Translations under genes and position numbers: made by a program | Assembly: GCA_001485605.1 (NCBI GenBank) | Contig: FAON01000011.1 | Location: 1-64,000, forward strand | Direction of reading: 5' to 3' | DNA from: Candidatus Kryptobacter tengchongensis | GTDB taxonomy: Bacteria; Bacteroidota; Ignavibacteria; Kryptoniales; Kryptoniaceae | Length of the DNA: 64,000 nt | The notes under the pieces: model-generated | What the model saw: the letters and a program-made list of their open reading frames with translations, nothing else | Told to the model about the DNA's origin: nothing | Database searches by the model: none | Shown: in pieces, positions 48,947-60,999 of the stretch | Layout of the letters: each line of letters begins with the position of its first letter | Position numbering within the stretch: the first letter of the stretch is position 1

Positions 48947-51595
48947 ATGAAAGTTCAACACAAGTTATTGATTGCCTTCTTGATCTCATTTTTAATCTTT
49001 ATAGTTGAGCTTGCAAAACTTCAACCCTTTGAAAGCCTGAATTCACTTTTCAACGAATTAAAATTTAGACTCCGTGGACAATCCCAAGTTGATACATCTC
49101 TCATATTTCTTTACATTGACGATAACGCTATTTATTCTCTTGGCGGTTATCCCTTAAAACGAAGCTACTATGCACTTTTAATTGATCTGCTTACCCAGTT
49201 GAATGTCAAAGCGATCGCTCTTGATATATTATTAACCGAAAGAAATTCCGATTATCCAGAAAGAGATGAATTGCTTGCTTTAACCATCAAAAACTCAAAT
49301 AGGGTTTACCTTGGCGGAAGTTTCGCAAATCTTAAAAGATCAGATAAAGATACATCTAATTATTCCAAATTAATAGAAAAATTTTTGATAAAAGCAAACG
49401 AGAAGAACCCAAATTTTATTAAGGGTTCTAATTTTCTTGCGCCCTTTGATGAACTGCTAAATAGCTGCGCTGGACTGGGACATCTAAACTATATTCAATT
49501 GAATTTTCCTAAAGAGATACCACTAATTATTCAAATTGATGAAAACCGATATTTGCCCTCGCTTTCACTTGAACTTTCACGAATTTACTATAATATCCCA
49601 AGGGATTCGGTAAAGATTTTAAAAAACGAAATTTATCTTGGTCGGATGAAAATCCCAACGAAGGATGGGAAAATCCTTATAAATTATATAGCTGGAACCA
49701 AAGGCTTGAAAATGTATCCCGTTTTAGACTTTGTAAGGTCATACGATGCGATTAAGTCTGGACTTGAACCCGAAATCAACTTGAGTGAGTTCAAGGATAA
49801 AATCGTATTTATTGGGATTTTCAGCGAAGCCCTTGGACAAGTTGTAAATACACCATTTCAAGATAAATTTCCACCCACTGGAATTCATTTAATGGCACTT
49901 AACACAATTATTCGGGGAAAATTTCTGACTGAAACTACCTCAACCTTGAATTTCATTTTATCATTTGTTTTCTCACTTTTAATCTTACATCTCACCCTAA
50001 TGAAAAACATTTCAAACATCATCAAACTCTTAGTTTTTCCCAGTCTTGTGATTTTAATTTTTCTATTGTTTTCACTTGCTTTATTTGTAATTGATATTTC
50101 AATTCCAGCATATCCTGCTTTCGCCATTTTGTTTTCATCACTTCTTGGAGTGATTTATACTTTTGAAATTGAACGAAAAAAGATGATTGAAATTGAAAGC
50201 CAGAGGGCAAAAATTGAAGAGATGATCAAAGAAAAAGAGTTAAAGATAATTGAACTCCAACAGAAACTTGAAAGCCTAAAATTGATGGAAGAAAAATCAA
50301 GTTTAATTTCAAACCTTGAAAAAACTTATGATGAGGTTAAAGAGTTAACTTCAAAATTTGAGGATTTTTCCGACTTTAATATAAATTATGAAATTAACGG
50401 TGCTGAACTTGAGGGGATAGTTTACTCAAAAGGCGGTAAGATGGAGGAGATAATTTCAACTGTTCAGAAGGTTGCTCCATCGGATGCTCCAGTTTTAATA
50501 ACAGGTGAAAGTGGAGCAGGTAAAGAACTAATTGCAATGGCAATACATAAGTTAAGCGAAAGAAAAGATAAAAAATTTGTTACGATAAACTGCTCTGCTG
50601 TTCCCGAAACATTGCTTGAAAGCGAACTTTTTGGTTATGAAAAAGGTGCTTTCACAGGAGCAACGCAAAGAAAAAAAGGTCTATTTGAAATTGCAGATGG
50701 AGGAACAATTTTCCTTGATGAAATAGCGGAAACGAGTTTATCATTTCAAACAAAAATTTTAAGGATACTTCAATCAGGTGAATTTAACCGAGTCGGTGGG
50801 ACAGAGGTTTTAAAAGTCAATGTCAGAATCATCGCTGCAACAAACCGTGATATTGAAAAAGCCATAAGAGAAGGGAAATTCAGAGAAGACCTTTATTACA
50901 GATTGAATGTTATCAGAATTCATATCCCACCTCTACGTGAAAGAAAAGAAGATATTCCATTTCTCGTTGAACATTTTCTGAGAAAATTTAAATCTGGGGA
51001 TATAAAAGTTTCACATGCTGTAATGATAGCTTTTTTAAACTATGATTGGCCAGGGAATATACGCCAACTTGAAAATGCAATAAAAAGAGCAATTATATTC
51101 GCAAGATCCGATGGGAGAAAATTAATTCAACTTAAAGACCTCCCAGAAGAGATCGCAAAATCAGCTAAAGGGAAAATAGATATTGAAGAAAAAATACTTA
51201 ACTCACTTCGTGAGAAAAAATTTTCACATAGTTCAATCTCTGAAACTGCAAACGAACTTGGATTAAATAGGGGAACAATTGGGGAATATCTGCGTGGAAT
51301 TTGTTTCAGAAATTTATACGAATGTAAATTTGATATAACCAAAGCATCCCTGAAAATTGCCGGAGATGACCCAGATGTTTCAGAAAGGGTAAAGAAAAAA
51401 CTCATTGATTACATAAAGAACTTGATAGAAAACATAGCGCAGTGCAAATCGGAAGACGAAATAAAATCACTAATCAAACAAAAATACAAAAATCTTCCCT
51501 TAAGATACCATCCTTATCTTGAAGAATTTGCAATAAGATTCCAAAAAGGCGAACTCACCATGGAAAAGTTGAATTTAAACGGTGGGGATACCTAA
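48947..51595 (+). CDS. Membrane CHASE2-sigma-54 enhancer-binding protein
   Basis: The 882-residue protein joins an extracytoplasmic sensor to a transcription activator. TM1 (~7-22), a CHASE2 domain (~30-325, with DTSLIFLYIDDNAIYSLGGYP, RSYYALLIDLL and DKIVFIGIFSEALGQVVNTPF), three TMs (~334-405) and a coiled coil (~408-470) come first. A sigma-54 AAA+ domain follows (~485-725) with Walker A GESGAGKE (520-527), GAFTGA (567-572), Walker B FLDE (589-592) and PPLRERKEDIP. The C-terminal ~150 residues include an HTH-like stretch (SISETANELGLNRGTIGEYL) rather than a plain Fis tail. It likely activates sigma-54 promoters directly from the membrane. The candidate target lies ~80 bp downstream. Confidence 0.88.
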   Translation: MKVQHKLLIAFLISFLIFIVELAKLQPFESLNSLFNELKFRLRGQSQVDTSLIFLYIDDNAIYSLGGYPLKRSYYALLIDLLTQLNVKAIALDILLTERNSDYPERDELLALTIKNSNRVYLGGSFANLKRSDKDTSNYSKLIEKFLIKANEKNPNFIKGSNFLAPFDELLNSCAGLGHLNYIQLNFPKEIPLIIQIDENRYLPSLSLELSRIYYNIPRDSVKILKNEIYLGRMKIPTKDGKILINYIAGTKGLKMYPVLDFVRSYDAIKSGLEPEINLSEFKDKIVFIGIFSEALGQVVNTPFQDKFPPTGIHLMALNTIIRGKFLTETTSTLNFILSFVFSLLILHLTLMKNISNIIKLLVFPSLVILIFLLFSLALFVIDISIPAYPAFAILFSSLLGVIYTFEIERKKMIEIESQRAKIEEMIKEKELKIIELQQKLESLKLMEEKSSLISNLEKTYDEVKELTSKFEDFSDFNINYEINGAELEGIVYSKGGKMEEIISTVQKVAPSDAPVLITGESGAGKELIAMAIHKLSERKDKKFVTINCSAVPETLLESELFGYEKGAFTGATQRKKGLFEIADGGTIFLDEIAETSLSFQTKILRILQSGEFNRVGGTEVLKVNVRIIAATNRDIEKAIREGKFREDLYYRLNVIRIHIPPLRERKEDIPFLVEHFLRKFKSGDIKVSHAVMIAFLNYDWPGNIRQLENAIKRAIIFARSDGRKLIQLKDLPEEIAKSAKGKIDIEEKILNSLREKKFSHSSISETANELGLNRGTIGEYLRGICFRNLYECKFDITKASLKIAGDDPDVSERVKKKLIDYIKNLIENIAQCKSEDEIKSLIKQKYKNLPLRYHPYLEEFAIRFQKGELTMEKLNLNGGDT

Positions 51596-51624
51596 ACCCA
51601 GCAATTTTAGGCTGAAACCCAGCA
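51594..51624 (+). promoter_or_regulatory. Candidate enhancer site: two AAACCCAGCA repeats 21 bp apart
   Basis: AAACCCAGCA is repeated at 51594-51603 and 51615-51624. The start-to-start distance is 21 bp, two helical turns, so a dimer or hexamer could bind one face. The first copy overlaps the stop codon of the CHASE2 activator. The last copy ends 54 bp upstream of the candidate -24 box, a usual distance for sigma-54 upstream activating sites. Function is inferred. Confidence 0.5.
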
Positions 51625-51677: not shown

Positions 51678-51692
51678 TGGCACAATAGTTGA
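51678..51692 (+). promoter_or_regulatory. Candidate sigma-54 (-24/-12) promoter
   Basis: TGGCAC (51678-51683), 5 bp, then TTGA (51689-51692) matches TGGCAC-N5-TTGC except for the last base (A for C). The GG of the -24 element and the G of the -12 element are in register. It lies 48 bp before the DUF4382-like gene, 82 bp after the sigma-54 activator stop. Confidence 0.55.
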
Positions 51693-51740
51693 AGTTAATC
51701 ATTACTGAAGATTTCAAAAACAAAATTTAGGAAAATAGCC

Positions 51741-52529
51741 ATGTTTAAAAAATTATTTTCACTTGCACTTATCTCACTGGCAATTTCAATCACCGGTTGC
51801 ACAAAAGGGACGGAACCAACAGGAACAAATCTTGTCCCAGTGGAGCTTAAACTTGTGGGAGAGACATCAGGAAATATAACTTTTGCAAAAGCGCTTGGTC
51901 AGGTTGATTCAATAAAAATTGATTTCGCTGTAATTGTTCTCAGATGGATTCAATTTAAGCAAAACATTGACACAGTTAAAGAAGATTCTCTCTGGGATGA
52001 CCACGATATGAATATGATACGTGAAAAAATGAGACGGATGGATGATGATCTAACGATAAGATTTAAAGGACCATTTTTTGTGACCTTAAGAAACAACGAA
52101 CCAACCCCGATAGCCGTTGACAGTTTACCACCTGGGAATTACAACGGAATAAAATTTAAAGTTCATGCTATTGTCCCATATGACTTACAAGTAAACCCTG
52201 CGGTGCCTGATTCGTTTCTCGGGAAGAGCATTTATGTTAAAGGAAAGATTTACCAAAACGGGACATGGAAAGACTTCGTCTTCACAACTGGAAGAGTTAA
52301 CACGGAATTCAAGATCAAAGGCGATTTTACAATTACAGAAACAGATAAAAACATCCCTTATGTTCTTGTCTTTGACTTGAATTCCTGGTTCATTGATCCA
52401 TTAACTGGACGAGTTCTTGACCCAAGCGATCCAGGTGATCAAGGCAAGATAATATCAAACATTGTTCACTCATTAAAAGGCAAAGCACGTGGCGGTAAAG
52501 ATAGAAATAGAGACGGAAGGCCAGATTGA
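51741..52529 (+). CDS. DUF4382-like exported lipoprotein
   Basis: The 262-residue protein has a lipobox ending at C20 (SITGC). The region ~35-150 resembles DUF4382: VELKLVGETSG, QVDSIKIDFAVIVLRWIQF and LPPGNYNGIKFKVHAIVPYDLQ, a beta-rich domain of unknown role. The remainder (FKIKGDFTITETDKNIPYVLVFDLNSWF) is also beta-rich. The tail is a basic, charged GGKDRNRDGRPD. It has its own candidate sigma-54 promoter at 51678 and a terminator at 52554. Function is not known; the family match is tentative. Confidence 0.6.
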   Translation: MFKKLFSLALISLAISITGCTKGTEPTGTNLVPVELKLVGETSGNITFAKALGQVDSIKIDFAVIVLRWIQFKQNIDTVKEDSLWDDHDMNMIREKMRRMDDDLTIRFKGPFFVTLRNNEPTPIAVDSLPPGNYNGIKFKVHAIVPYDLQVNPAVPDSFLGKSIYVKGKIYQNGTWKDFVFTTGRVNTEFKIKGDFTITETDKNIPYVLVFDLNSWFIDPLTGRVLDPSDPGDQGKIISNIVHSLKGKARGGKDRNRDGRPD

Positions 52530-52643: not shown

Positions 52644-53531
52644 ATGAAAAAAATAATTTACATAATCCTGGCTCTTGGATTGCTTGGATGTAGTAAAAAC
52701 CCGCTGATAATAACACCAGAAGAAGAGGAAAAATTTAACCTTGAGGTAATTTATCTTGACGAAACAGAACCAGTCATTGAGTTTTTGAATTCTGCCCAAA
52801 CTGGTCTTTTAACCTCAGAAATGATGGGTCCAGGGGGGTTAGTGGTATTAAGTTATTATCAATTTGTTGATGATTTTGGGAACAGATACGATACAACCTT
52901 GGCTTATGCACTTTTTCGTGATATGAGCTCACCACCTATAAACATGGGGCGCTGGCGTGAAAGAAAAGGGCTTGATCTTGGCGATGTTTATCTTGAAAAT
53001 ATAAAACTTGAAAAATCTACCAGAGAAATGAGAACACCACAACAACACCATGCAAGAATGGACACAAGCTACGGGGTTGAATATAAACTTAAAATAACAA
53101 ACTTTGACTTCAAACATTCTAAAAACCACAAATTTAAAATCATTAACAAAACAGGCTTGGAACAAAATTTTGAACTTAACACACCAGATAAAAAAGAGTT
53201 TGAGAGTCTGCCGGAATACGATGGCAAAAACTTAAAACTTAAGTTTAAATCAAAAACGGATTCTTTAAATATCATCGTAAATATACCGCTATCAACCCAA
53301 GATAAATTCGTTACAAAGCCAGTGATGATGCTTAAATTCAAGAATTTATCCGATTCAAAAATTAAAATTGACTCAACAATTATAAACCTTATACCAAGCG
53401 AATATAGGCGAAACTATCTTATATTTAGCATAGTTCAGGAACGCAAAAGCGATATAAATATATTGGGATACCCAGGAAATGTTAAGGGTTTTGTATCATC
53501 AACTCTTTATTTTAAAGTAAATCTAAGATGA
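52644..53531 (+). CDS. Hypothetical exported lipoprotein
   Basis: The 295-residue protein has a clear lipobox ending at C16 (LGLLGC). The rest is beta-rich and charged, with PEEEEKFNLEVIYLDETEP near 31-50 and NFDFKHSKNHKFKIINKTG in the middle. I do not recognise the family. It overlaps the next gene by 4 nt, so the two are probably co-translated and the proteins may work together at the outer membrane. Codon use looks like its neighbours and there is no sign of transfer. Confidence 0.6.
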   Translation: MKKIIYIILALGLLGCSKNPLIITPEEEEKFNLEVIYLDETEPVIEFLNSAQTGLLTSEMMGPGGLVVLSYYQFVDDFGNRYDTTLAYALFRDMSSPPINMGRWRERKGLDLGDVYLENIKLEKSTREMRTPQQHHARMDTSYGVEYKLKITNFDFKHSKNHKFKIINKTGLEQNFELNTPDKKEFESLPEYDGKNLKLKFKSKTDSLNIIVNIPLSTQDKFVTKPVMMLKFKNLSDSKIKIDSTIINLIPSEYRRNYLIFSIVQERKSDINILGYPGNVKGFVSSTLYFKVNLR

Positions 53532-55501
53532 AACTGCGTCTCATTTTATTTTTCACAGCGCTCAATCTGGCTGTAGCACAAAATTTAACATCACCGCAGA
53601 CGATCGCTGGATTTTCACCATTTGTAAATTCTGTTTTATCGTCTACGCTTAATCCAGCAGGTTTGACAAGGGTTTATGATTGGAATGTAGGATTAATGGG
53701 TTATTACACAAAACATTTGGGTAGTGGAATGCATTCAGTTGGAATAGCAAAAAGGTTCAACGAAAAACAAACCATTGGTTTCATCTACTCACCCGGGGCT
53801 GTTCTTGAATTTATTTTCCCTTCACCCGTATCAATAAACATAGGCAATTCAATTCTAAATGCCGAATTTCAACGCAAAATAGTTTATTCATCAAACTATG
53901 CGTTTGCGTATGCCCTAAAACTTTCAAATGAAACCTCAATTGGTTTATCAACACGATATATCTCACAAAATTTTTTTGAAACCGACTATAAGATTCAATC
54001 AACCGACTCGCTTCCAAATATCAACATTGAAACATTCCAATACAAATCTTCATTTTTAAATTCAAAAATTTCGCTTCTTTATGAACCAAGCCCAAAAATC
54101 TCACTTGTTTTTACATTTGAAAATCTGCCAATCAAGCTTGATAACGGATTTCCAGAAAAATTTAAGAACTTTGAAATTGATAATAAATTCAAACTTCAAA
54201 CCTCGCTTGGATTTCGCTTCCGAAACTTCAAATGGGGAGTTGAAATTTCATCACTCAGAGATCTTCTCTCTGGCTTTGAAGTTCAACCGATTGAAAACTT
54301 ATTTTTGAGATGCGGACTGTCTTCGGAAAATCTAAAAGTCAATGCTTTCTTGGCAGGGGTTGGTTTAAGAACTGGGATCTTTCAATTTGATATCGCCTAT
54401 CTTAAAAATACATCAAACATATGGAGCGATAATAAACTAACGCAAAGTGAATTTCTCTCGTCACACATACGGGATATTGAACTTAACAAATTCATCACAG
54501 ACAGAATAACATTTTCAATTTCAATAGATATGAGTAGATGGCATGAAAAAAACTTGCGCATAAAAAATATCGTAATCCAAAATGAAATCTTTCCTCATTT
54601 GATTGACGAACTTGAGAGAAAAAAGATCGGCTTCATTGAAGTTGAAAACATATCTAATAAAACTCTGAATGCGAAAATTGAACCGAAATCAACTCTGATT
54701 GACATTGAAGTTGAACCCGAAGAATTTCAAATCAAACCATATGAAACAAAAACAATACTCGCTTATATTTTTAAAAAATCAAACAATCCAGAGATAAAAG
54801 AGAAAACCAAAGTTGATATCAAATTTGATATTAAATCAATCCCCAATGTCCCGGATGAAACGAAAAGAATTAAAATTTCAGTTTATGGTAAAAATGATTG
54901 GAATGGGAATGTTGAAGATTTAAAATTTTTTCTCAAATTTGATTCCCCAGAGATATTATCTTTAACCAGAAAAATAATCTGGGAACGGAAGGATACACTT
55001 GAAAAAATAGACCCGATGTTGAGAAAATTTTATCAGGCGAAATTTTTGTTTGATGAACTCTCAAAAATCATAACTTATGTCAGCGATCCAAGTTTAAGCA
55101 TTGACAGGGTTCAATATCCAGAGGAAACATTGAAACTTCACACAGGCGACTGCGATGATCTTGCGGTTTTGTATGCTTCAATGCTGGGTTCGGTAGGGAT
55201 TGACTTCGCCTTTGTTGATGTGAAAGCAATGAGAAAACCTAACGAATCACATGTTTATATTCTGTTTGATTCAGGAATAGATAAAAAGTATGCTTTGAAC
55301 ATAACGGACAATGAGAAAAGATATACCATTATAAAAAATAAAGACGGAGTTGAAACTCTTTGGATACCCATTGAAACGACACTTGTTCGCGAGAAATTTG
55401 ATAGGGCTTGGGAGGTTGGAGCCGAACAATTTTTTGATGACTTTGAGCTCAATCTTGGGCAAACTAAAGGCAAAGCAAGAATTGTATTCATCCAAAAATA
55501 A
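53528..55501 (+). CDS. Beta-barrel protein fused to a transglutaminase-like domain
   Basis: The 657-residue protein has a signal peptide (1-17) and then a porin-like N-terminal half (~20-330: NPAGLTRVYDWNVGLMGYYTK, and repeated alternating strands) similar in style to PorV/UPF0164 barrels. Residues ~345-450 look like an Ig/HYDIN-type domain. The C-terminal part (~480-657) has a transglutaminase-like core: HTGDCDDLAVLYASMLG (candidate nucleophile C~542), ESHVYILFD (candidate H~575) and LWIPIETT (acidic third residue region). A barrel carrying an apparently intact transglutaminase triad is unusual. Function is inferred as surface processing or assembly of proteins; a non-catalytic fold is also possible. 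Confidence 0.6.
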   Translation: MKLRLILFFTALNLAVAQNLTSPQTIAGFSPFVNSVLSSTLNPAGLTRVYDWNVGLMGYYTKHLGSGMHSVGIAKRFNEKQTIGFIYSPGAVLEFIFPSPVSINIGNSILNAEFQRKIVYSSNYAFAYALKLSNETSIGLSTRYISQNFFETDYKIQSTDSLPNINIETFQYKSSFLNSKISLLYEPSPKISLVFTFENLPIKLDNGFPEKFKNFEIDNKFKLQTSLGFRFRNFKWGVEISSLRDLLSGFEVQPIENLFLRCGLSSENLKVNAFLAGVGLRTGIFQFDIAYLKNTSNIWSDNKLTQSEFLSSHIRDIELNKFITDRITFSISIDMSRWHEKNLRIKNIVIQNEIFPHLIDELERKKIGFIEVENISNKTLNAKIEPKSTLIDIEVEPEEFQIKPYETKTILAYIFKKSNNPEIKEKTKVDIKFDIKSIPNVPDETKRIKISVYGKNDWNGNVEDLKFFLKFDSPEILSLTRKIIWERKDTLEKIDPMLRKFYQAKFLFDELSKIITYVSDPSLSIDRVQYPEETLKLHTGDCDDLAVLYASMLGSVGIDFAFVDVKAMRKPNESHVYILFDSGIDKKYALNITDNEKRYTIIKNKDGVETLWIPIETTLVREKFDRAWEVGAEQFFDDFELNLGQTKGKARIVFIQK

Positions 55502-55515
55502 ATCAGGTTTATAAA

Positions 55516-56235
55516 ATGAAACAAAAAATTTTAATTCAGCTGATCTTAACACTTGTGATTTTAACGCTTTCCATTTCAGGTGAAAATTATATATACAAGG
55601 TGAAGAAATTAAACGGAGAAGCACTGGTAAGACATGGAGCAAAAGAAAAATGGGTGAAGCTTTCATATGGAGATACCCTCCGACCTGAGGATACATTTTT
55701 TCTTGATAAAAATGGATATATTGAAATAGAAGGGAATAAAATACTTTTCAAATCAGATGGTGGAATAATCATCAACATTTCGGATTTAAGACGGTTAACA
55801 AAAGAAGAACTTTTGCTTCAACTTGCATTTGAAGAGATGAAAAGTGTCCCCGATGTTAAAAAAGATAAATCAAACGCGAAATCAACAGGGATTTATGGAA
55901 CTGAAATAGAGAAAGAAAAAACAAATCTAAAAACTGGATGGAATTTAACGAATTATTGGGTTAAGGGAGTTAGCGCTTTATTTGAAAATGGATTCTATGA
56001 AACATCTGCTATAAGGGCAAGAAATTTGATGCTAAAATTTGACGAGTTAAAAGATAACATTGAATTAAAAATGATAATTGCAACTTCACTTGAAAAGCTT
56101 GAGCTTTATGGTGAAGCAATTTCCGAGCTTAACAAGATACTTCTATCATCAAAGGACAAAAATTTAAATGCAAGGGTTGAGCAGAAAATACAGGAACTTA
56201 AAATGAAACTTGCATCTTTAAGGGGCGATAAATAA
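55516..56235 (+). CDS. FecR-like and TPR-like exported protein
   Basis: The 239-residue protein has a signal peptide (1-22). Residues ~26-92 resemble a FecR-type beta domain: GEALVRHGAKEKWVKLSYGD, LRPEDTFFLDKNGYIEIEGN. A linker follows, then helical pairs (~145-225: NLTNYWVKGVSALFENGFYETSAIRARNLML, LEKLELYGEAISELNKILL) read as TPR-like. It is 14 nt after the barrel/transglutaminase gene and probably in the same operon. I recall FecR-type proteins lying beside CHASE2 proteins in other bacteria. The FecR match is weak by eye. Confidence 0.5.
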   Translation: MKQKILIQLILTLVILTLSISGENYIYKVKKLNGEALVRHGAKEKWVKLSYGDTLRPEDTFFLDKNGYIEIEGNKILFKSDGGIIINISDLRRLTKEELLLQLAFEEMKSVPDVKKDKSNAKSTGIYGTEIEKEKTNLKTGWNLTNYWVKGVSALFENGFYETSAIRARNLMLKFDELKDNIELKMIIATSLEKLELYGEAISELNKILLSSKDKNLNARVEQKIQELKMKLASLRGDK

Positions 56236-56561: not shown

Positions 56562-56789
56562 TTATCTTCTAAACTTTCCAACAAAATTTTTCAAAGAATC
56601 ACGAACAACACCCGAGGCTAATTTATTTTCCTTTGCCACTTTTACATAGATCTCCTCACGATAAATTGATACATCATCCGGGGCTTCAAAGCCAAGTTTT
56701 ATTTGATTTCCCGAAATTTCAAGAACTGTTACCTTTATGCTGTTCTGTATTATAACTGACTCCCCAACCTTTCTTGAAAGCACAAGCAT
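56562..56789 (-). CDS. csrA: Carbon storage regulator CsrA (translational repressor)
   Basis: The 75-residue protein begins [12 protein letters not shown], the invariant CsrA start, so I chose ATG 56789. An in-frame TTG at 56804 would add five residues (MGNLE) absent from the family. It binds GGA motifs in 5' leaders and blocks translation. The next upstream gene on the same strand is fliW, whose product binds and inactivates CsrA until flagellin is exported. This fliW-csrA pair controls flagellin synthesis in Bacillus and Campylobacter, and is likely to do the same here. Confidence 0.95.
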
Positions 56790-56816
56790 TTCCAAATTTC
56801 CCAAAATTTCTTTTTA

Positions 56817-57212
56817 TCAAGCAAATAATGAATGCGAAATCTCAAAATCCGAATTTTCAAGTATAACCTGTTTACCAAGATTTTTAACTCTATCAATTAC
56901 AATTGGCGCCTTTAAATTAACACTTATTTTTGAAACATCCTTATTTAATGTCACTATAGCAAAAACGACATGAATTTTTTGATCAAATCCCGCACGATTA
57001 TAATAATCTTCAACCACAAGCGACGGCTCAATAATTGCAAACCCTATCTCTGGCTCGTCAACTGAGATCAACCAACGAAATGGCTTAAAATCCTCGTCTT
57101 CTACTATGATAAATCTCTTCAACTCCTCAAATCCTATTATGCCCTCAGGGAAAGAAATTATTATCCGATCATCAAATTCAATTTCTCCGAATTGAGAATT
57201 TCTTATCTTCAT
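56817..57212 (-). CDS. fliW: Flagellar assembly factor FliW (CsrA antagonist)
   Basis: The 131-residue protein shows the FliW pattern: FGEIEFDDRIIISFPEGIIGFEELKRFIIVEDED (6-40), PFRWLISVDEPEIGFAIIEP (about 43-62), and a C-terminal DRVKNLGKQVIL. It binds flagellin and CsrA in turn. It lies 12 nt after motB and 27 nt before the csrA start, in the flagellar run. No flagellin gene lies in the window. Confidence 0.93.
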   Translation of the reverse strand: MKIRNSQFGEIEFDDRIIISFPEGIIGFEELKRFIIVEDEDFKPFRWLISVDEPEIGFAIIEPSLVVEDYYNRAGFDQKIHVVFAIVTLNKDVSKISVNLKAPIVIDRVKNLGKQVILENSDFEISHSLFA

Positions 57213-57224
57213 TTTTTTAGAATT

Positions 57225-57971
57225 TTAATTTGAAATTTTACCAAACACTCCACTTTGAGTTGAGATTACAACTATGTCAACTCTTCTATTTTTTGCTCTA
57301 TTTTCTTCGCTATCGTTGGGGGCGATCGGTCTATATTCTGCATATCCAACAATTGAAATTTTTTCAGGGTTAACACCTTTGTTCATTAAATAGTAAGCGG
57401 TGTTTAAGGCTCTTGCAACTGAAAGATGCCAGTTTGATGGAAATTTTGCACTTCTGATCGGTCTATTATCCGTATGTCCTTCAATTCTTATTTTATTTGG
57501 CAGGAATTTTAAAATTTCAGCAAGGGTATCAAGAACTGACATTGCTTCAGGTTTTAATTCAGCGCTTCCAGATTCAAAAAGTAATCTCTCAAGAAGGTGA
57601 ATTGTTAGACCTTCTGACGATGTTGTCACAATAATTTTCTTTGATTGGATGTTTGAACTTAAAACTGCATTTATTTGAACTTCAAGTTTTTGCTGTTGTG
57701 TTGGCTGAGACGCACTCACATCGGAAGCAGAGCCCGACTTGGGTGGCGCTGGCGTTATGAGAACTCCCTTGCCCCCAGCAAGAACCCCTCCACCGCCGAA
57801 AAGTTGACTGAAAGCAGAAATCCACTGCTGATACTTGCTTAAATCAATTTGCGACATTGAATAAAGCACAACGAAAAGCCCAAGAAGAAGTGTAATAAGA
57901 TCAGCATAGGTTATAAGCCATCTTTCAAGATTTTCATGCTCTTCGTGATGTCCTTTTTTCTTTCTCGCCAT
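57225..57971 (-). CDS. motB: Flagellar motor stator protein MotB
   Basis: The 248-residue protein has a short basic N-terminus, one TM (~20-40) with the proton/ion-binding aspartate D24 in TYADLITLLLGLF, a glycine-rich plug/linker (GGGGVLAGGKGV) and a C-terminal OmpA-like peptidoglycan-binding domain (~130-240: IEGHTDNRPIRSAKF, NRRVDIVV). It pairs with MotA 2 nt upstream. The ion used (H+ or Na+) cannot be decided by eye. Confidence 0.95.
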   Translation of the reverse strand: MARKKKGHHEEHENLERWLITYADLITLLLGLFVVLYSMSQIDLSKYQQWISAFSQLFGGGGVLAGGKGVLITPAPPKSGSASDVSASQPTQQQKLEVQINAVLSSNIQSKKIIVTTSSEGLTIHLLERLLFESGSAELKPEAMSVLDTLAEILKFLPNKIRIEGHTDNRPIRSAKFPSNWHLSVARALNTAYYLMNKGVNPEKISIVGYAEYRPIAPNDSEENRAKNRRVDIVVISTQSGVFGKISN

Positions 57972-57973
57972 AA

Positions 57974-58759
57974 TTAATTCTCTATGGATTGTTCGCTTAT
58001 CGGGAACATTGAATAAAGTTTCGTTTTAATTATGCTTGGGACTTCACCGGCCTGAATTGCAAGGACACCTTCAACTATGATTTCAAGCAAGACCTTTTCC
58101 TCTGCATGGATTGCTTTTAGTCTATCTGCAATTGGAAGCCATATAATGTTTGCAGAAAAAACTCCCCAAAGCGTTGCTATAAATGCGCTCGCTATATGAT
58201 GGATCAATTCATTAGGGTCACCACCCGCATTTGCAAGCGTTGAAATTAAACCCATAACCGTCCCAATTATCCCCATCGTCGGCGCATAGCCACCCATCTT
58301 TTGAAAAACAGTAGCATTTGTCATATGTCGCTCAGTTATATAGTTGATCTCAATATCTGCAATCTCACGGATTGTTTCCGGATCAGTTCCATCAATTGCG
58401 AGGCGTAACATTTTCTTTAAAAATGGATTTGATATACTGTTAACTTCCTTCTCGAGCGCAAGTATTCCATCCTTTCTTGCTATAATTGCATAATTTACAA
58501 TCATCTCAATTGTCTCAACCACATTAAATTTTGGCGGAACAAGCGCAAGCTTTATAAAACTTGGAATTTTTAAAAAGACTTTCGCAGGCGAGCCAATCAT
58601 AGCAGTTGCTATTGTCCCACCGAAAACAATAAGCATCGCTGGAATCAAAATCAAAGCCCCTAAAGTCCCACCCTCAAGTAAAAACGATCCAAAAATTGAC
58701 AATATCCCAAGTATAAGCCCAGCTATAGTCCCAAATTCAAATGTTGAGTTATTCTTCAT
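57974..58759 (-). CDS. motA: Flagellar motor stator protein MotA
   Basis: The 261-residue inner-membrane protein has four TM helices (~8-24, 33-52, ~155-176, ~186-208) and a cytoplasmic loop with torque-type charges (RKDGILALEKEV). The GGYAPTMGIIGTVMGL stretch near TM3 is typical of MotA. It lies between flgL (4-nt overlap) and motB (2-nt gap), so stator genes are embedded in a hook/junction operon. Confidence 0.95.
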   Translation of the reverse strand: MKNNSTFEFGTIAGLILGILSIFGSFLLEGGTLGALILIPAMLIVFGGTIATAMIGSPAKVFLKIPSFIKLALVPPKFNVVETIEMIVNYAIIARKDGILALEKEVNSISNPFLKKMLRLAIDGTDPETIREIADIEINYITERHMTNATVFQKMGGYAPTMGIIGTVMGLISTLANAGGDPNELIHHIASAFIATLWGVFSANIIWLPIADRLKAIHAEEKVLLEIIVEGVLAIQAGEVPSIIKTKLYSMFPISEQSIEN

Positions 58760-59637
58760 CTCAAATAATCAATGATTGTTTTTTGAACTATCCTTCCAGC
58801 AATTATATAAGCCGATTCAAGGATAAGTTGATCTCTTTGTAGGTTTATCGCTTGCTGAGCCATATCCGTATCCTGGCGAATTGATAAAAGCTCTTTTAAC
58901 ACAACATTTTGTTTTTCAATTTGCTTCTGCAAAAGAGAAAATCTATTCATCGCAGCTCCAACATTTGACGCTTGACTTACGATGAACTCAAAAAGTTCAT
59001 CAAATCTTTGAAAAAGTGAATCATCAGGTTTAATTCCTCCTTTCAACAAATTTTTCATCTGAAGTATCAAGTCAAAAATCTCTCTTCCACCAAATAACTC
59101 GTAAACTGTGAAATTGACCTTCTCATAAACTCCATCGTTAAGCTCAAACTTTATCGCTTCATCTGATAAATCAACACTTAAAAAATCAACTCTTTCATTA
59201 TAATTGAACGGCTTTACATCGCTTTTAGTCCCATTGAATATATATTTGCCCTTAAACTTCGTATTAACCGAATCAAGCAACTGCTTAAAAAGCTCGTTCA
59301 ACCTATTTGCGTATGTTTGATAATCGGGTTGACGAGCTGAATTTGAAATCTCAACAAGAAGAGATTTAACATCAATCATTGTATTAATGAAATTATCAAC
59401 CGCATCAGCTGTGGCTGTTAGAAAATCAATCGCATCGTTTATATTCTTTTGAAACTGTTCATTTTTATTTATCATGTTTTTCAGGTTCATTATCAAATTT
59501 GCCGTATAAGGGTCTTCCGAAACAGTGTTGATATTTTTCCCCGTTGCAATTTTCAACTGCGTCTCATTAACTCTGCCCCTTACTTTATTTATGCTTTCAA
59601 CCAGATTCTTTATAACCGTTAGTTCTGTAATCCTCAT
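58756..59637 (-). CDS. flgL: Flagellar hook-filament junction protein FlgL
   Basis: The 293-residue protein (HAP3) shows the flagellin-like N-terminus (KVRGRVNETQLKIATGKNINTVSEDPYTA, ~19-47) and C-terminus (VLKELLSIRQDTDMAQQAINLQRDQLILESAY), with a short central part. It links FlgK to the filament. It is 18 nt after flgK. The length is close to that of other FlgL proteins. Confidence 0.93.
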   Translation of the reverse strand: MRITELTVIKNLVESINKVRGRVNETQLKIATGKNINTVSEDPYTANLIMNLKNMINKNEQFQKNINDAIDFLTATADAVDNFINTMIDVKSLLVEISNSARQPDYQTYANRLNELFKQLLDSVNTKFKGKYIFNGTKSDVKPFNYNERVDFLSVDLSDEAIKFELNDGVYEKVNFTVYELFGGREIFDLILQMKNLLKGGIKPDDSLFQRFDELFEFIVSQASNVGAAMNRFSLLQKQIEKQNVVLKELLSIRQDTDMAQQAINLQRDQLILESAYIIAGRIVQKTIIDYLR

Positions 59638-59655
59638 AAATCTTCGCTTTTTGTT

Positions 59656-60999
59656 TTATCTAATCATGGAGAGAACCGCATCAATCATCTCATTTACCGT
59701 TTGTATGACCTTTGCTGAAGCTTCAAACATCTTTTGAAACTTTATCATGTTGAGCATCTCCTCATCAATTGAAACTCCTGAGATCGCATCCCTTTGAGAT
59801 TCAATTTGATTCAAAACCATACGATGTAAATTCTCATTATCAGAGCTTATCTTTGTTCTCAATCCAATATCACTAACCATTGAATTATAAAACCCTAAAA
59901 TCTTCACATCATTTCTCAAAGATGAGATTGCGAGAGCCACTTCATTGTTGCCAATGTTACCATTTATTGAAGATGAAATCTTTGAAGGATTATCAATTAT
60001 GCTTTTGTTAACCTGAATGTTTCCAGCTCCTGTCCCAATGAAAAAATCAAGCCCAGTGCTTCCATCAATCCCATATCCGACCTTGTGAAAGTCATTCACT
60101 TTCTTAATTAAATTTTGAGCAAGCTCATCAAATTTTTGCTTTATCTCGGGAATTACCTCGTTAAACAAACTCTGCAAAGCGAAAACCTCACCAGACTTTA
60201 ATTTGATCTCGCTTCCATCCCGAAGAGATACAATCTTTGCAAAACCGTCAACGAATCTCAACTCAATTGTTTGGATAAAATTTTTATCCACGACCATAAC
60301 CCCACCCATACTTACTCTAACACTTCCACTCTTATCGTAAGAAACAACTAAATCAGCAAGTTCTGAAAGATCCTTTAATTTTTGATTTATTTTGTCACGA
60401 ATGTCGTTTGTTTCAGCGCCAGAGTTACGAAGGTTTATCGCAGATTGATTTAATTTTCCGAGATCCTCAATTATTTGATTTATTTTCCCCACTTTTGCTT
60501 CAAGTTCAGAAATTATATCTTTTTTAATACCCAGTAAACTGTTAAAAATATCGTTAAATCGCCCTGAAAGGGCTTTACCAGTATGGATAACTGAAACTCT
60601 TATAGCTCTATCTTCGGGATTTTTTGAAAGGTCATCAAAAGCGTTGAAAAAATTCTCAAGCAAATTACCAAGTCCAGTTTCATCAGGTTCGTTTAGTAAA
60701 GATTCAATACGAGTTAGTATTTCCTTTTCAATTGAATAATTCCCAACTAAATTTGAAATTCTTCTTATTTCACCCTCAATAAATTCGTCACGGATTTGTT
60801 TTACACCGACAACTTTTACACCCGCATTTATCATCCCATTTTTTAAGTTTAAGACATCAGTTGATGTTAACTCAATTCTTTGCCTTGTATAACCAGGCGT
60901 ATTTACATTTGAAACATTATGGCTTGTCACTTCCATCCCAGCTCTTGAAGAATTAATCGCTCTCTTTGCGCTCTCAATTATACTGAATAAACCAGCCAT
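59656..60999 (-). CDS. flgK: Flagellar hook-associated protein FlgK
   Basis: The 447-residue protein (HAP1) has the rod/hook N-terminus (GLFSIIESAKRAINSSRAGMEVTSHNVSNVNTPGYTRQRIEL) and a C-terminus SGVSIDEEMLNMIKFQKMFEASAKVIQTVNEMIDAVLSMI. It is shorter than the enterobacterial protein (~547) because the central variable domain is reduced. It starts 2 nt after flgN, and the start codon of the N-terminal motif fits. Confidence 0.94.
   Translation of the reverse strand: MAGLFSIIESAKRAINSSRAGMEVTSHNVSNVNTPGYTRQRIELTSTDVLNLKNGMINAGVKVVGVKQIRDEFIEGEIRRISNLVGNYSIEKEILTRIESLLNEPDETGLGNLLENFFNAFDDLSKNPEDRAIRVSVIHTGKALSGRFNDIFNSLLGIKKDIISELEAKVGKINQIIEDLGKLNQSAINLRNSGAETNDIRDKINQKLKDLSELADLVVSYDKSGSVRVSMGGVMVVDKNFIQTIELRFVDGFAKIVSLRDGSEIKLKSGEVFALQSLFNEVIPEIKQKFDELAQNLIKKVNDFHKVGYGIDGSTGLDFFIGTGAGNIQVNKSIIDNPSKISSSINGNIGNNEVALAISSLRNDVKILGFYNSMVSDIGLRTKISSDNENLHRMVLNQIESQRDAISGVSIDEEMLNMIKFQKMFEASAKVIQTVNEMIDAVLSMIR

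Follow-up and report, generated by a model that had tools for sequence, protein, structure and literature searches.

LapA, a giant adhesin, is the substrate of LapG, a cysteine protease of the BTLCP family (Peptidase C93) with a transglutaminase (TG) fold and a GDC[DE]D-type cysteine-calcium signature, which is tied genetically to LapD, an inner-membrane receptor with a periplasmic sensor. This LapG-LapD-LapA system is already known, as are operons that associate a CHASE2 receptor with a periplasmic FecR-domain protein, such as BiofilmReg of Burkholderia (PMC5192318). In that description, BiofilmReg comprises a histidine kinase, a response regulator and a LysM-FecR protein, with neither a TG enzyme nor a barrel. 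Another BTLCP, HvyA of Caulobacter, likewise has a periplasmic TG-fold cysteine domain with an envelope role; its description (PMC4241560) presents it as a soluble protein, made of a signal sequence and one domain, that acts on capsulation.

We analysed a 64-kb window, that is, the whole stretch of 64,000 nucleotides of Candidatus Kryptobacter tengchongensis, and describe an operon encoding a protein in which an outer-membrane-type barrel precedes an Ig-like sandwich and a TG-fold domain. The operon resembles the LapG system in its TG-fold cysteine domain with the same signature, in its genetic tie to a receptor that sits in the inner membrane and has its sensor in the periplasm, and in a partner protein with a beta domain ahead of the proposed site. 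Unlike LapG, the protein has a Glu at the triad position of the Asp, is anchored by a barrel and an Ig domain, and is unmatched by Pfam C93. Unlike the Lap system, the receptor is a CHASE2 protein with a transcription or cyclase output instead of LapD, and the partner is a FecR-like/TPR protein or a small motif protein instead of a giant adhesin. The operon also differs from BiofilmReg in its sigma54 output. PorV/PorQ and FadL have the 14-strand barrel in common with our protein, whereas here the barrel is fused to an Ig-TG module and scores under the PorV/PorQ cut-off. Going by the titles retrieved, a full-text search of the open-licence PMC literature returned no description of a TG enzyme with FecR, CHASE2 or PorV, and none of CHASE2 together with LapG.

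Organization of the operon and its candidate promoter

The operon is located on the plus strand of the window and contains the following features.

48947-51595, plus strand: protein of 882 aa with a CHASE2 periplasmic sensor, transmembrane segments and a sigma54 AAA+ activator (Pfam; position conserved in relatives)
51597-51624, plus strand: candidate binding site for the activator, made of two direct CCCAGCA repeats at a 21-bp spacing (unique in the genome)
51678-51693, plus strand: candidate sigma54 promoter, TGGCAC-N5-TTG (position conserved in the genus)
51741-52529, plus strand: lipoprotein 1, lipobox ITGC, weak DUF4382 likeness (ORF list, Pfam)
52644-53531, plus strand: lipoprotein 2, lipobox LLGC, overlapping the next start codon (class-wide conservation)
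53528-55501, plus strand: barrel-Ig-TG protein, 657 aa (ORF list, profile matches, AlphaFold2, Foldseek)
55516-56235, plus strand: partner of 239 aa with a signal peptide, a FecR-like beta domain, a helix and a TPR-like region (hhalign, conserved adjacency)

The genes for the CHASE2-sigma54 protein, the two lipoproteins, the barrel-TG protein and the FecR-like/TPR partner follow one another in this order, all in the same orientation and, from lipoprotein 1 onwards, with short gaps. A preliminary description made from the sequence had proposed co-transcription of the barrel-TG gene with two exported proteins. The two upstream lipoproteins agree with that proposal, which was incomplete in that neither the receptor nor the FecR-like/TPR partner was mentioned, nor the likely sigma54 promoter. 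The upstream protein matched Pfam CHASE2 (PF05226) with 116 bits against a cut-off of 26.3, and Sigma54_activat with 242 bits, and it is likely the receptor and activator of the operon.

CCCAGCA-N12-18-CCCAGCA has its sole occurrence in the whole 2.68-Mb genome at this position, and a pair of such repeats, with some mismatches, is readable upstream of TGGCAY-N5-TTG in six of the six genus members compared. TGGCAY-N5-TTG itself lies in the same place, the gap before lipoprotein 1, in all six, and it occurs once in the window when both strands are scanned, the pattern having been fixed after the window site was seen. A scan with the sigma54 consensus by itself gave 38 matches versus 30 expected, which is no support above chance; what supports the promoter is its conservation in the six related genomes, which are not independent of descent. 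Going by these sequences, transcription of the operon would start from a sigma54 promoter under the control of the CHASE2 receptor encoded next to it.

Lipoprotein 2 is conserved across the class, as a profile of 6 relatives recovered it with an E value of 3e-23. For lipoprotein 1, no homology to the same-position gene was detectable outside the genus, where an unrelated lipoprotein takes its place. The C-terminal end of lipoprotein 1, GGKDRNRDGRPD, is an EF-hand-like acidic motif that is retained in the genus member L029. C-terminal tails of the class-wide lipoproteins 1 (DD..P...WWGVPY; L030:5295-6266, L035:5700-6743) resemble those of CHASE2-cyclase receptors (PPP.DW.GVF; L036:2350-4539, L037:7304-9469), a likeness that may be due to chance.

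A predicted barrel fused to an Ig-like sandwich and a TG-fold domain

The barrel-TG protein is predicted to contain three parts.

53681-54532, plus strand: 14-strand FadL/PorV-type barrel, aa 52-335 (AlphaFold2, structural neighbours)
54554-54883, plus strand: Ig-like sandwich, aa ~343-452 (AlphaFold2, structural neighbours)
54911-55498, plus strand: TG-fold domain, aa ~462-657 (Pfam, family profile, AlphaFold2, conservation over 121 sequences)

This layout had been read from the sequence as a porin-like N-terminal half, an Ig-like linker and a transglutaminase-like domain, and AlphaFold2 yielded the same succession of a barrel, an Ig sandwich and a TG fold. The full-length model, built with 28 relatives, reached a mean pLDDT of 85 and a pTM of 0.53, a value that leaves the relative orientation of the predicted domains open, and the Ig-TG module modelled alone reached a pLDDT of 90 and a pTM of 0.83.

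The N-terminal half matched the NCBIfam PorV/PorQ model (NF033709) with an E value of 8e-9 and 35.5 bits, below the curated cut-off of 90, and as a family profile it matched solved PorV with an E value of 4.6e-6. Furthermore, the predicted barrel fitted FadL and PorV about equally well (Foldseek E 6e-10 to 5e-9; Z about 25). FadL-type barrels have a periplasmic C-terminus. Because the modelled barrel has an even number of strands, the TG domain that follows it would reside in the periplasm and not be exposed at the cell surface.

The structural neighbours of the TG domain are TG-fold proteins with Z scores of 9-10, including 3kd4 (Z 10.4, rmsd 3.3, 139 aligned), yeast PNGase (Z 9.7, rmsd 3.9, 151 aligned), 3isr (Z 9.4, rmsd 2.9, 125 aligned) and human transglutaminase 2 (Z 9.3, rmsd 4.2, 170 aligned). 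When the Ig-TG module was used as the Foldseek query, Ig-like chaperones ranked first. LapG was absent from the structural neighbours of the module among the matches listed, which excludes nothing. With Pfam Transglut_core (PF01841), the barrel-TG protein scored 22.5 bits, just under the cut-off of 23, and 25 of 28 module members matched this family at an E value of 0.01. In TG-fold enzymes the Cys lies at the N-terminus of a helix, and the His and the acid on the strands after it. In the predicted model, C542 starts helix 542-555, H575 begins strand 574-585 and E616 comes directly after strand 609-615, hence a TG arrangement by both fold topology and sequence order.

A predicted LapG-like active site with a glutamate

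Three sites form the predicted catalytic centre.

55148-55156, plus strand: D541-C542-D543, predicted nucleophile flanked by predicted calcium ligands (conservation, LapG alignment)
55250-55252, plus strand: H575, predicted catalytic His (121/121)
55373-55375, plus strand: E616, predicted catalytic acid, Asp in LapG (119/119 without gap)

The motifs GDCDD, ESHVY and WIPIETT, reported earlier in a Cys-His-acid order, are present around C542, H575 and E616. Conservation was counted over 121 distinct module sequences from several phyla. C542 was found in 120 of these, H575 in every one, and E616 in all 119 sequences without a gap at this position (two are gapped), while D520, D541 and D543 were conserved in 120, 120 and 116 of the 121, respectively. 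In L101:2780-4789, a copy from a MAG, a Tyr replaces the catalytic Cys, which reflects either an error or an inactive enzyme.

Among solved structures, the module profile is closest in sequence to two LapG entries, 4u65 (E 1.4e-5) and 4fgo (E 0.006), and D520, D541, C542 and D543 align to LapG D111, D134, C135 and E136. In published work, the Cys of LapG is given as C135 (PMC3032545), D111 is listed among the calcium ligands (PMC4359373), and a double change of both Cys-flanking residues of DvhG is reported to abolish activity (PMC13090378). The residues of the LapG-type calcium site, on either side of the Cys and in the loop that precedes it, are thus present in the alignment and suggest a calcium site in our protein. 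Peptidase C93 (PF06035) gave no match to the barrel-TG protein at E values up to 1 and none in its genome at 1e-5, and was found in one of 247 genomes across the phylum. LapG-family proteases carry a Cys-His-Asp triad and cleave substrates with a retention module in a calcium-dependent manner. Because the acid is a Glu and not an Asp, and because Pfam C93 is unmatched, the barrel-TG protein is, by its sequence, LapG-like but not a LapG.

A FecR-like partner with a conserved motif

In all of the 25 class loci examined, the gene immediately after the barrel-TG gene encodes a FecR-like partner. The partner family (13 aligned members) matched CHASE2-linked FecR proteins by hhalign (prob 95.4, E 1.9e-8, 64 columns), and none of the 13 members matched PF04773 (FecR) at E values up to 1. 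One short motif lies between the two domains of the partner.

55882-55905, plus strand: STGIYGTE, between the FecR-like and TPR parts, proposed as the equivalent of the FecR RGT signature by position only

Gly128 is invariant in the 13 partners. The Arg of the RGT position is replaced by Tyr or His in most class partners; Kryptonia and most Ignavibacteria lack it, and an intact VVRGT is found in the L134 partner.

We also considered whether the partner is a LapA-type retention-module substrate, since 10 of the 13 downstream partners matched NCBIfam retention_LapA (best E 2.8e-4). This candidate was rejected because the match is common to ordinary FecR proteins and hence not specific: in a control set of ten proteins from a Pfam FecR search, two of which are TG partners and were not counted, 4 of the other 8 also matched (best E 6.6e-4). 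Nothing significant was obtained with retention_LapA in the genome itself, the best E value being 0.32 at another place. FecR-like domains (55516-56235; L085, L094) gave weak scores with the model of the LapA retention module, which suggests that the two domains are related.

Relatives in several phyla

A contig scan with the single protein as the query retrieved no relative. Full-length homologues were found in 12 further genomes among 61 searched, and the resulting 13 full-length proteins align end to end. Because of these homologues and of the near-invariant triad, the barrel-TG architecture is not a product of chance. The Ig-TG module is present in 41 of 149 class genomes. Across the phylum it was found in 72 of 296 genomes, with many of these matches weak and partial. 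The closest named relatives of the TG part belong to Candidatus Kryptonium, Chrysopegis and Thermokryptus; Kryptonia have been described from high-temperature springs (PMC4737851). The 77 named module loci include Ignavibacteria, Spirochaetes, Delta- and Gammaproteobacteria, Rokubacteria, Elusimicrobia and Cloacimonetes.

The anchor of the module varies and can be a FadL/PorV-like barrel, another outer-membrane barrel, or NHL or regulator propellers with TPR. A type of ~850 aa has an N-terminal part with no Pfam match, followed by TG and TPR. That N-terminal part was labelled CsgG-like purely by reading; a Pfam CsgG match in L036 was discarded as support for it, as the match belongs to the neighbouring gene.

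Excluding one locus with no TG ORF and four truncated loci left 72 testable named loci, of which 64 have a FecR-like or RG..YW-motif gene adjacent to the TG gene (25 with an adjacent FecR-like gene, 38 with an RG..YW gene downstream and one with a FecR-like gene upstream). The remaining eight have no recognisable partner. The RG..YW motif was found in 0 of 195 background ORFs of similar length, and in 0 of 6400 shuffled copies of the 32 small motif-selected partners. Because the RG..YW motif itself served to retain 32 of the 35 downstream genes, the invariance of RG and YW is partly due to selection; the downstream gene of L170 carries the variant RGK. Furthermore, all 13 proteins of the ~850-aa type that were checked have a similar motif, FGGRRG.DPT...LYWK (YWR in one), at their C-terminal end or close to it, a count that leaves out G087 and G104. 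Profiles of the FecR-like and of the small RG..YW partners gave no whole-profile match to each other and only a weak TPR alignment (prob 2.9). Judged by position and reading, the two motifs may be equivalent.

Linkage to CHASE2 receptors

A CHASE2 gene is linked to 35 of 46 module matches in the class, one fragment (G146) of the 47 rows being left out. A script requiring the same strand and a distance within 8 kb retrieved 32 of these, and reading of the neighbourhoods added L035 and L097 on the same strand and L096 on the opposite strand. Three of the 11 matches with no linked CHASE2 gene are at contig ends (G144, G123, G128). In barrel types the receptor gene lies 5-7 kb upstream of the TG gene. 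In ~850-aa types it is found downstream, at a distance of about 1.8 kb, and the two of these receptors that were checked have a cyclase output; overall, the outputs of CHASE2 receptors near the module are sigma54 or cyclase. The genome of Candidatus Kryptobacter tengchongensis has three CHASE2 genes, each beside a TG gene or a FecR gene. Module loci of Gammaproteobacteria and Elusimicrobia gave no CHASE2 match. FecR-CHASE2 pairs also exist without TG, indicating that TG is not essential to that pairing.

A proposed envelope-signalling mechanism and its alternatives

The reading that we favour, and for which we see the arguments as evenly balanced, is that of a periplasm-facing LapG-like TG-fold cysteine enzyme that acts on the partner, with CHASE2 as the read-out. 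The FadL/PorV-like barrel would anchor the enzyme in the outer membrane and may bind a ligand, and the Ig-TG part would use Cys542, His575 and Glu616 along with the LapG-type calcium site. The enzyme would most likely recognise, and probably cleave, the downstream FecR-like/TPR partner, with cleavage proposed near the conserved motif between its two domains. The CHASE2 receptor would then sense the outcome in the periplasm and turn on the operon from the sigma54 promoter, the barrel-TG protein being the putative effector of a dedicated envelope-signalling operon. Counted against this reading are the Glu in place of the LapG Asp, the Tyr in L101, the eight loci of 72 that lack a partner, the missing motif Arg, the two partner profiles that do not match each other, the CHASE2-free loci of Gammaproteobacteria and Elusimicrobia, the FecR-CHASE2 pairs without TG, and the pTM of 0.53.

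An alternative that is rather unlikely, yet carries real weight, keeps an active TG enzyme and gives it another envelope substrate, such as lipoproteins or peptidoglycan-bound proteins, with the FecR-like partner as a binding regulator or inhibitor. Conservation of the partner and its motif suits binding as well as cleavage, the enzyme of the ~850-aa type itself carries the motif C-terminally, as would be expected of an autoinhibitory tail, and the operon includes two lipoproteins. Conversely, the layout of the partner, a beta domain followed by a helix and the motif, loosely parallels that of the LapG substrate as given in PMC13090378, which speaks for a substrate. A catalytically dead TG domain, serving for binding and with its conserved residues holding the fold or calcium, is improbable: the Glu instead of Asp and the Tyr in one relative would fit it, whereas near-invariance of the Cys, His and Glu over 121 sequences from several phyla would be unusual for a dead enzyme.

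The preliminary description had favoured the processing or crosslinking of exposed surface proteins. Despite the barrel anchor and the presence of human transglutaminases among the structural neighbours, we regard this role as very improbable because the C-terminus of such even-stranded barrels is periplasmic. Furthermore, its gene is linked to those of a periplasmic FecR-like partner and a CHASE2 receptor, the nearest sequence relative of the protein is the protease LapG, and the same module is carried by propeller/TPR or other non-barrel parts in relatives. The least probable reading is that of a type IX secretion accessory, in which a PorV-like shuttle would be fused to a maturation enzyme. 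PorV is indeed close to the barrel by sequence profile and by fold, but FadL fits the fold equally well, the module also occurs on propellers and other anchors, and no type IX secretion gene was recognised among the neighbours of the operon.

The favoured reading of an enzyme acting on its partner can be extended into a broader one, which we advance as possible but doubtful: an envelope system spanning several phyla, in which a TG-fold protease with a Cys-His-Glu triad is mounted on anchors, periplasmic or outer-membrane, that can replace one another, its secreted substrate is marked by a motif, and CHASE2 receptors read out the cleavage in Bacteroidota-related lineages. The substrate motif would be a FecR-derived RG[A/T], with YWK after it in many phyla, that survives loss of the FecR domain and has a similar counterpart in cis on the enzyme. 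Such a system would be an outside-in counterpart of Lap signalling, and would in addition account for the input that some CHASE2 domains sense.

The related pairs in several phyla suggest an undescribed envelope-sensing system, and the recurrent link between genes for CHASE2, a TG enzyme and a FecR-like partner provides a concrete candidate for the periplasmic input to CHASE2 receptors. If the partner is cleaved, the role of LapG-like folds in periplasmic proteolysis would extend far past the release of adhesins. As a short peptide, the motif of the partner lends itself to direct biochemical tests.

Genomic surroundings of the loci

Genes for CsrA, FliW and MotB-like, MotA-like, FlgL-like and FlgK-like proteins (names read from translations) adjoin the operon at 56562-60999 on the minus strand, and the order of these genes beside the operon is kept in genus loci L025-L027 and not in L029. 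In the Gammaproteobacteria loci L142 and L147, the TG-partner pair is located between lpxD-fabZ-lpxA-like and tsaB-like genes (names likewise read from translations), a stable chromosomal place.
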